From Candidatus Pelearchaeum maunauluense (lineage in GTDB: Archaea > Thermoproteota > Nitrososphaeria_A > Caldarchaeales > Caldarchaeaceae), in assembly GCA_030059675.1 (NCBI GenBank), contig JANVYQ010000001.1, positions 124,001 to 188,000 on the forward strand: a stretch of DNA of 64,000 bases, given 5' to 3'. This document shows positions 45,037 through 48,128 of the stretch, piece after piece (position 1 is the first letter of the stretch; every line of letters starts with the position of its first letter). The translations under genes were made by a program, and so were the position numbers. A model generated the notes under the pieces. The model saw only the letters and a list, made by a program, of their open reading frames with translations, did not search any database and had not been told where the DNA came from.

Positions 45037-45360
45037 TTATGCTGGCCTGGATTCGGGTGCCATAACCTCGCACACAGCTTCCAAGAGGCTGTCATAATCG
45101 GCGGATACTCCCATGCGCGCGTTCATCTCCCTTATAATCGCCTTCTCAATATACTTCGCCCCAGTGCCGAACATGCTGTAGAGAGCGTTGACGAAATCCT
45201 TTAGGCGCTTGGGTATTTCTTCGCGCTTAATCCCCCAGCGCCTCTCCAAGTGCCAGAAGATTACCCGCTTGGTCTGCTGCCCCAGCGAGTCCAGCCCCCT
45301 GTCAACGCATTCAAGGAGCCGCGCCTCAACCTCATTATTATTTGGCATCCTAGCATTCAC
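45037..45360 (-). CDS. Probable NitrOD5-domain signalling output protein
   Basis: A 107-residue protein whose central part (LLECVDRGLDSLGQQTKRV, FWHLERRWGIKREEIPKRL, VNALYSMFGTGAKYIEKAII) resembles the NitrOD5 domain found alone or behind sensor domains in Thaumarchaeota. That match is from memory, not a search. It lies 3 bases downstream of the KaiC/GvpD-like ATPase on the same strand, so the two should be co-translated and probably interact. A short acidic tail ends the protein. Helical, with no Cys or metal motif. Confidence 0.6.
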   Translation of the reverse strand: MNARMPNNNEVEARLLECVDRGLDSLGQQTKRVIFWHLERRWGIKREEIPKRLKDFVNALYSMFGTGAKYIEKAIIREMNARMGVSADYDSLLEAVCEVMAPESRPA

Positions 45361-45363
45361 CGC

Positions 45364-46800
45364 CTAGACTATGGGTGTGAGGAAGACACGTGGATAGCCT
45401 TGGCTGAAGTCGTATTCAACGTGGTGTATCAGTGAGGGCGGCTTTACGGAGTAGAGAATGAGAGAGCCGTCCAGCTCGTTCATCTTGATATGCGCCGTAG
45501 CCATATCTGATACGGCGTCCTTGCTCTGGGTTGAGTGCTTCACCGCAAGCATAAGAATATCGCCATAATATCTTACGCGCTGGATGGATGTTATTATGTT
45601 TCTTATGAGCCACTGCTGGCCGTGTATAGCCTCCATAACATCTATCCCGAGGAATATGAAGCACGGCTGGTTGCTCCTTTTCTTGAGACTCTGAGCCTCT
45701 CTCCAGAGCCTCTCAAAGGTCCTCGTTATGGAGTGGCTGTCAAGTCTGAGGAATGTGGGGTCGCGGTGATACTGCTCGTAGTGCGCTACCCTGAGATGGC
45801 TCTTCAGCGTCTCTTTTGGTATGTGTAGTCCTATTGACTCCCTGACCATCGTGGGAGTTATTCCCCCAGCGGGTAGGATTAGCGCGCACCCGCGATTGAG
45901 GATGAAGTTGCACGCCATCATGGACAGGAGGGGCAAGTGCCAGTCAGGGCCCACGTTTCCACCCATCTCAAGTAATATGACGGAGCCGCGCCGCATGCCG
46001 CTTCCGAGGAACATGTCAAGGTCTGCGCTTGATGTGGAGAATAGCTCGCCATGCTCCACATGCTTGAAGGGCTGAGGCTCCATCTCACTCGGCAGCTGTG
46101 TAACCACGCGGCCTAGTAGTGTGAAGCGGCCTCCGTAGAGTGTGAATATGCTTGTGCGCTGGGTTATGGCCGAGCCGCGTAGCTTCTTCCACTCAATCCG
46201 CCTTATTCGCCTTCCCTCCATGACCTCGTCATGCAGCACGACTACAGCATCAACCAGATAGTCAGTCGTTGTTAGATGCGGCTCCTCGCTGACAAACACC
46301 ACCCTCGCGCCGCTGGTCTCTACAGTAGTAGCTAGAGCCTTCTCCATCTTAAGACGCTCCACCACATCCAGCTCCTTCGCAAAAGCATCCCAAGAGTCTA
46401 GAACAATCAACGGCTCCTTAATCCTCTCCGTAACAGCTAGGATGAACTACACTATGTCGGTTGATGTCCCCATCCTCACATCTTCAAACCTTATTCCAGC
46501 GGCGTCCGACCTTGCTTCTAGAACCTTGCCGCTCTCTATGAGCTGCGCCATCCCAGGATCATGCTCCAACAGCTTCTCGGCTGATACGCGTGTTGAGACG
46601 TAAACGCCCCTGCCGTGAAGCTTTAGAAGCTCTAGGGCGAGCATCGTCTTGCCGACGCCTGGCTCGCCCTTGATGAGAATAGACTTTACAGCTGGGCTTA
46701 GTAGAGAGTCCAGCCTCATCAGGTAGCCACCTCGCCTCGCGGTGGTCTGGCGCTCCCCTACGGCTGGCTCTCCAGAAAGTAGAGAATGCTGAGGTTCCAC
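45364..46800 (-). pseudogene. KaiC/GvpD-like tandem RecA-fold ATPase gene with an in-frame TAG
   Basis: A frame of 478 codons broken only by TAG 46447-46449 (codon 118). Domain 1 has Walker A IKGEPGVGKTMLALELL (about residue 43), then the stop in TSTDIV-stop-FILAVTERI, then Walker B PLIVLDSWDAF. Domain 2 (about residues 255-478) has KaiC-like order (SADLDMFLGSGMRRGSVILLEMGG) but its P-loop lacks GKT. This architecture resembles GvpD/KaiC-like archaeal regulators. Start GTG 46800; ACTATATAATATAC (46821-46834) gives a leaderless transcript. If the stop is real, only a 117-residue P-loop fragment or a TTG-initiated C-terminal piece (46410) is made. Confidence 0.8.
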
Positions 46801-46820: not shown

Positions 46821-46834
46821 GTATATTATATAGT
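46821..46834 (-). promoter_or_regulatory. TATA box of the KaiC/GvpD-like operon
   Basis: The minus strand reads ACTATATAATATAC, centred about 28 bases before GTG 46800; transcription start would fall within a few bases of the codon. This supports the GTG as the true start and indicates that the disrupted gene still has a strong promoter. Confidence 0.6.
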
Positions 46835-46871
46835 TAGTCCCAGCGAGTATTACTTCGTTTTAACATGAGTA

Positions 46872-48128
46872 TTACTCGCGTCGGAGCGCCTCTATAGGCT
46901 CCAGCTTAGCGGCGCGGTATGCTGGGATTATTCCAGCCAAGGCACCTACGATGACCGCCATCAATATCCCCGCGAGTATCAGCTCAGGCGTTATGTTGGG
47001 CGTGAATACCAGCGCTTCTGGCCTGGTTCCAGGTGCTTGGAACGCTCCTGGCCTGCTCCGCGACTGCGGCGGGCTTCCAAAGAAATCCACAAGAACGAAA
47101 GAGCCAGCAGCGCCTAGGGCAACGCCTATCACGCCACCGATAAGACCGATTAGGATAGCCTCCATCAGGAAGCTGAGCAGAACATCACGCGTCTTGAAGC
47201 CAAGCGCCTTAACAAGACCAATCTCCCTAACACGCTCAGTAACCGAGGTGAACATCGTCGTCATAATTCCCAGAAACGCTACGACTATGCTCATAGCTCC
47301 TACAGCGCTTAGGAATATAGTAAGGCTTCCCAAGATTTGCTGGACTGTCTGCTGTATTGCGCTGAGGGAGAAGACGCGGACGTCGGCGCCGTACATGGCT
47401 AGGAGCCTCTCTACAACCTGGTCGCTGTAGCTAGCGTCAACCAGCTTGATGAACGCTCCGCTGTAGCTCCTACCCCCCATGAGCTCGCGGCCATCACGTA
47501 GATTGATGAACATGATGATGTCTGGGTTTAGGAAGAATGTCTGGCCATACTTGGCGAACTTACCAGCGACTTGGAACGACCTGGAGATGGCTCCACCTCC
47601 AGGCTGTTGCCTGATAACAGTTACTAGGCTGCCCACGTCTATCTCAGGCATGTCTGGGTCTGTCGGGTTCCATACGCGGTAGCCCACATACGCCTTGCCC
47701 CGCCCACCAGCAACAAAATCACCACCAGCAAGCTCTATGTCTGGGAATATCTTATCCATCTTACGCAGGTCAAAAGCGAGTATGAGATACGACTCAAAGG
47801 GGTTGAGCTCAACGGTCTTCCCAGCAATCTTCAGCCTGCCAGTAGCTATCTGGTAGAATGGTATGATGTCCGTTACACCGTCTATCCTTGATATGCGCTG
47901 AACCTCCTTATCGTTGAAGTCAAAGTCCCCAACAGCTATCATGTATATCGTGTTGGTGCCTATCGTCTGTAGGCTGTCGGTTATCGCGTAGGTTAGGCCG
48001 CTGGTTGTCGCGTTGAGCGCCACGATTACTGCTGGGCCTATTACTATACCCAGTATGGTGAGGGCTGACCTGACCTTCCTATCCTTTAGCGCGCTCCATG
48101 CTAGTAGCGCTATGTCGGCGAGCTTCAC
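46872..48128 (-). CDS. MacB/FtsX-type ABC permease
   Basis: A 418-residue permease. TM1 (about 18-40) is followed by a large extracytoplasmic domain (about 45-270, MacB periplasmic-core-like), then three membrane helices with TTMFTSVTERVREIGLVKALGF (the FtsX cytoplasmic signature) and a C-terminal ILAGILMAVIVGALAGIIPAYRAAKLEPIEALR. These permeases do not carry substrate through a channel but transmit ATP-driven motion across the membrane. GTG 48128 overlaps the stop of the upstream S-layer-like gene (GTGA). ATPase and extracellular partner are in the same operon. Confidence 0.9.
   Translation of the reverse strand: MKLADIALLAWSALKDRKVRSALTILGIVIGPAVIVALNATTSGLTYAITDSLQTIGTNTIYMIAVGDFDFNDKEVQRISRIDGVTDIIPFYQIATGRLKIAGKTVELNPFESYLILAFDLRKMDKIFPDIELAGGDFVAGGRGKAYVGYRVWNPTDPDMPEIDVGSLVTVIRQQPGGGAISRSFQVAGKFAKYGQTFFLNPDIIMFINLRDGRELMGGRSYSGAFIKLVDASYSDQVVERLLAMYGADVRVFSLSAIQQTVQQILGSLTIFLSAVGAMSIVVAFLGIMTTMFTSVTERVREIGLVKALGFKTRDVLLSFLMEAILIGLIGGVIGVALGAAGSFVLVDFFGSPPQSRSRPGAFQAPGTRPEALVFTPNITPELILAGILMAVIVGALAGIIPAYRAAKLEPIEALRRE

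Follow-up and report, generated by a model that had tools for sequence, protein, structure and literature searches.

Two minus-strand genes in the window (the whole stretch of DNA analysed, 64,000 nucleotides) raise the question of whether an ATPase resembling KaiC and GvpD, and a small all-helical protein encoded immediately downstream of it, work together as one signalling device, and whether a stop codon inside the ATPase gene controls that device or disables it. The reading that we prefer, with moderate confidence, is that the pair is an archaeal KaiC-superfamily signalling module, in which a GvpD-type nucleotide-switched ATPase is served by a dedicated helical adaptor.

The two open reading frames were called at 45364-46800, encoding 478 residues if the internal TAG is read through, and at 45037-45360; neighbouring genes encode a 6-phosphogluconate dehydrogenase and a MacB/FtsX permease. 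The GTG at 45360, the first possible start of the small frame, sits within a GGTGA Shine-Dalgarno-like motif that precedes an ATG at 45348, and in the congener an in-frame TAG falls between the positions of these two codons. On both grounds the ATG is probably the true start, and the gap after the ATPase stop is therefore 15 nt rather than the 3 bases given in an earlier note on this DNA, whose observation that the genes are adjacent stands. Compared with the congener, codons 1-150 of the ATPase gene differ at 20 of 450 bases and the remainder at about 99 of 984 (window 45367-46800); the low divergence of the 5' third could reflect either constraint or exchange.

Table 1. Positions of genes, motifs and upstream elements within the window.
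Feature	Position	Strand	Remark
GvpD-type tandem KaiC-fold ATPase gene	45364..46800	-	interrupted by a single TAG in frame; uninterrupted in the sister species
Small all-helical protein, 103 aa, putative NitrOD5 / archaeal DEATH-like family	45037..45348	-	corrected to the probable ATG start
Walker A of domain 1	46645..46668	-	GEPGVGKT, intact
Walker B of domain 1	46393..46410	-	LIVLDS, intact
STRV motif	46585..46596	-	occupies the catalytic-glutamate site of KaiC; also in GvpD
Second P-loop site	45943..45969	-	EMGGNVGPD, without GK[ST]; predicted inactive
In-frame TAG, codon 118 of ATPase	46447..46449	-	GAG (Glu) in the congener
TATA box, TATATAATATA	46822..46832	-	21 nt separate its end from the ATPase GTG start
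Operator-like 11-mer, AAGTAATACTC	46845..46855	-	copy closer to the TATA box
Near-palindromic 11-mer, GAGTAATACTC	46867..46877	-	22 bp further upstream

The identification of the larger protein as a KaiC/GvpD-like ATPase, made earlier from the sequence, was upheld. The read-through translation scored 52.4 bits against GvpD_P-loop (PF07088; 56.1 bits in the congener, cut-off 24) and 45.1 bits against Pfam KaiC (cut-off 26.6), while the NCBIfam KaiC equivalog gave 45.7 bits against a cut-off of 408. GvpD basic region 2 (GvpD_bR2, PF20440, cut-off 27.9) was detected in the intact congener copy at 28.9 bits and in the congener's paralogue at 42.4 bits; the window copy scored 20.6. Halobacterium GvpD aligned as a full-length homologue (E 5e-28, 27.5% identity, 92% coverage). 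The fold is a tandem of KaiC RecA domains, with KaiC as the best PDB fold match (E 6e-24), and residues 1-26 are disordered in the AlphaFold model. The first P-loop is intact and domain 2 has none, in agreement with the degenerate second P-loop described before. Circadian KaiC has two active P-loops with an autokinase domain; here the second P-loop is absent.

The STRV motif of domain 1 occupies the site that holds the catalytic glutamates in KaiC. In an alignment, sites of the same type were also seen in GvpD (YVSTRV), Methanomethyliaceae, Baldrarchaeota, Bathyarchaeota and other homologues, and a second group of relatives retains a glutamate (SFAE and similar, the SxxE type). The STR group, GvpD included, formed one side of a branch in the ATPase tree with support of 100/100. 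A profile search of 349 genomes from the phylum recovered the ATPase in 54. The six other members of this genome's family that were searched lack it, and its occurrence is thus patchy.

The small protein was modelled by AF2 (pLDDT 86) as four helices. The earlier note considered it a probable NitrOD5 protein and proposed a profile search of 45037-45360. In that search NitrOD5 (PF11537) reached E 0.007 and 17 bits on the window protein alone, below the cut-off of 27, but it matched 23 of 30 homologues drawn from the same phylum (E up to 0.1, best E 6.7e-6). The assignment appears credible only through the family, not from the window protein by itself. The family profile matched PH0832 of Pyrococcus horikoshii (2P9X) at E 1.7e-9, and Foldseek superimposed the predicted fold on the same structure with a TM-score of 0.80. 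Among the 50 Foldseek matches listed, only 2P9X was convincing and none was a eukaryotic death domain, and the model does not confirm a link to eukaryotic DEATH domains. NitrOD2, NitrOD4 and NitrOD5 have been placed in an archaeal 'Death domain-like' family (PMC5847659). The small protein gave no HTH match and no match in a plasmid search. Homology to GvpE was considered and rejected, as the profile had no GvpE match and GvpE is a PadR-type winged helix.

Relatives of the small domain have a REC protein as neighbour in L011 and a GAF-type protein in L016, settings that would suit an adaptor role. At L011:973-1797 a REC response regulator gene is directly followed by the small NitrOD5-like gene and then by the gene of a 442-aa protein with initial hydrophobic segments. 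Elsewhere in the genome under study a stand-alone small-domain gene (G000:C2:274840-275061) adjoins a TenA-like gene, identified by eye, and the same is seen in the congener.

A survey of conserved neighbourhoods, also suggested earlier, found the small domain beside the ATPase, or joined to it in one protein, in 14 of 20 loci (one locus per genome), and adjoining it in 19 of 30 loci taken from the phylum survey, the two sets sharing four genomes (this one, G000; the congener, G001; G056; G060). Since the genome has five small-domain genes in 824 kb, chance adjacency is unlikely. The small domain is downstream of the ATPase in the window, G001, G031 and G060, upstream in G056, G058 and others, and N-terminally fused to it in G017. 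Within the GvpD type, the partner was clear in the own genus and in G056 and gave weak signals in L206, L207 and L209; in L204, L205, L208, L211 and L216 it was not seen or weakly detected. In a profile scan of named genomes, which reached 19 loci (12 archaeal), GvpD-type ATPases of named archaea had other partners instead, a winged-helix gene (L182) and a REC domain (L184). The sequences show the two folds, the motifs, a natural fusion and conservation of the pairing, and at this level the pair is taken to be a conserved archaeal signalling module. The earlier note had reached this two-gene reading and had named a missing NitrOD5 match together with an unconserved pair as the outcome that would count against it; what was found was a family-level match and a pair conserved in relatives.

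From these features we infer a physical interaction between the two proteins, a nucleotide switch and a target, as follows. Domain 1 of the ATPase, having both Walker motifs, is predicted to bind ATP and, because STRV replaces the KaiC catalytic glutamates, to hydrolyse it slowly, if at all. Domain 2 would be an inactive RecA fold serving as scaffold. According to its nucleotide state, the ATPase would hold or release the small four-helix adaptor, which would in turn pass the signal to another protein. By analogy, the adaptor may play the role that GvpE plays for GvpD, as an unrelated partner that does not bind DNA; the GvpD P-loop is required to reduce GvpE (PMC4390858). The SxxE-type ATPases keep one Glu, which counts against generality, and the predicted loss of hydrolysis thus cannot be extended to all relatives.

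The in-frame TAG that had been noticed near Walker B is indeed there and precedes the Walker B aspartate by 17 codons. At this codon the congener, whose protein is 95% identical, reads GAG. A paralogous pair on contig C9 has an ATPase with two TAGs, both of them GAG in the congener. Between the two species, the GAG-to-TAG changes of the two ATPases are confined to this genome, and all three are single G-to-T differences. The adaptor genes of both GvpD-type ATPases remain open. Omega was 0.072 and 0.082 for the two ATPases, with a genome median of 0.079; both are under purifying selection near that median, and any loss of these genes is therefore recent.

Against 344 congener orthologues (102,000 codons), GAG was replaced by TAG four times, three of them in the two ATPases. 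About 8 of the 344 genes carried convincing internal nonsense by our reading of the list, and the chance that both GvpD-type genes would be among about 8 such genes is about 5 in 10,000. Systematic misassembly of TAG was rejected, since conserved genes of this genome carry nonsense rarely and at scattered places. Isolated cases include a TAG at window 7315 (C2:131315), where the congener has TCA, at 58% of the length of a 90.6% identical protein and another recent nonsense change; a TCA-to-TAA change in a 94% identical protein of this genome (L123:7559); and a GAG-to-TAG change in a 94% identical protein of the congener (L152:2501).

Recent inactivation or an assembly error fits the TAGs of the two ATPases best; the module has probably been inactivated recently in this genome, or else the assembly has those bases wrong. 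That the stops are consensus errors of the metagenome assembly, with both genes intact in the organism, is possible but rather unlikely. In favour of error, each of the three is a single-base difference, and in both genomes conserved genes contain a handful of isolated nonsense codons; yet the small set of genes with convincing nonsense includes both GvpD-type genes, one of them hit twice. This clustering in one gene family suggests relaxed constraint over random error, and for that reason we lean towards inactivation. A further speculation, in which we place little confidence, takes the silencing of both GvpD-type ATPases through GAG-to-TAG changes alone to mean either that a whole branch of archaeal signalling was recently shut down in a single lineage or that, in precisely this gene family, UAG is tolerated or used where glutamate is encoded.

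Upstream of the ATPase gene, the one strong TATA box reported earlier was confirmed, and its position predicts a leaderless or near-leaderless transcript. Beyond it lie the two near-palindromic 11-mers, the farther of which shares bases with the stop codon of the permease gene lying upstream. Both 11-mers and their 22-bp spacing are kept in the congener, and no other such pair occurs in the 824 kb covered for this genome or the 611 kb covered for the congener. A copy with one mismatch, GTGTAATACTC, stands on C9 (L049:12205), some 160-200 bp ahead of the paralogous ATPase gene, hinting at a regulator common to both ATPases.

The paired sites bear on a different reading, a transcription switch like GvpD/GvpE, in which the ATPase would trigger loss of the small protein and the latter, acting on the GAGTAATACTC sites spaced 22 bp apart, would activate its own promoter. 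GvpE likewise acts on its own promoter, beside the BRE (PMC4390858), and gvpD and gvpE are adjacent in the same order as the pair here. We nevertheless consider this switch unlikely: besides having no HTH match and no profile match to PadR-type GvpE, the small protein has the fold of PH0832 and not a DNA-binding fold, and 1% of 90-bp stretches of random sequence contain a 10-mer direct repeat.

For arCOG01174/arCOG03758 pairs, control of type IV pili by an oscillator of the KaiC/KaiB kind has been proposed, the DEATH-like protein standing in for KaiB (PMC4858521). The tandem KaiC fold of the ATPase agrees with such a role, and type IV pilin-like genes (RGLSPLLAIIIGL...) occur near three KaiC-like ATPases of the SxxE type that have the small domain as partner (L032, L033 and L037), which fits a pilus link. 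For the window pair the oscillator is distinctly unlikely, as the ATPase has neither the second P-loop, that of the KaiC kinase domain, nor the catalytic glutamates, and no pilus gene was seen beside it, its neighbours being the dehydrogenase and the permease.

Very improbable is read-through of the TAGs by a suppressor or as the conditional switch proposed earlier, leaving functional genes with regulated full-length expression: TAG is the commonest apparent in-frame interruption (39 TAG, 14 TAA and 14 TGA candidates in this genome), the three ATPase TAGs all fall at GAG positions and selection on both genes is normal, but the congener has GAG at all three, the change is rare among the orthologues, TAG is also the ordinary stop of 113 of 314 ORFs of at least 150 aa, PylS matches were found only below the cut-off, and no CUA tRNA was among the 41 tRNAs found in 824 kb, a search left incomplete by tRNA introns and unsearched contigs. 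Recoding of UAG, whether in general or for pyrrolysine, was rejected on the PylS result, the ordinary use of TAG and the rarity of GAG-to-TAG changes, and these sequences do not support a conserved switch.

The preferred reading, an ATPase/adaptor module, can be set beside several known systems. Cyanobacterial KaiC shares the tandem RecA domains and gave the best fold match, but the window ATPase is missing its second P-loop and catalytic glutamates. The small protein is like NitrOD5 in being a small stand-alone domain with several copies per genome, also found beside REC proteins, and unlike it in scoring below the family cut-off. PH0832 resembles it in profile and fold at 21% identity, and was deposited as a hypothetical protein. 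The system of Halobacterium salinarum is like the window pair in that the ATPase is homologous to GvpD over nearly its full length, with both GvpD Pfam domains and an STRV motif after the P-loop, and in that its gene is directly followed by that of a small regulator. It differs in the low identity of the ATPases, in the partner, which is a helical NitrOD5-type domain here and PadR-type in GvpE, and in its setting: a GvpA protein search gave no match in this genome or the congener (the positive control was detected) and the neighbours are unrelated to gas vesicles, so the gas vesicle context is absent.

KaiC-like ATPases have been proposed as central archaeal signalling hubs whose partners are hardly tested. 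Outside a gas vesicle context, with a naturally fused relative and intact in the sister species, the pair offers a compact test of the DEATH-like domain as a direct partner. The compact ATPase/adaptor device is, as a class, already predicted: pairing of a KaiC-like ATPase with a DEATH-like protein was put forward in 2016-2018 (PMC4858521, PMC5847659). The window pair is like the arCOG01174/arCOG03758 pairs of those studies in joining a KaiC-family ATPase and a DEATH-like helical protein as two genes, and it is set apart from them by its ATPase, which is of the GvpD (STR) type.
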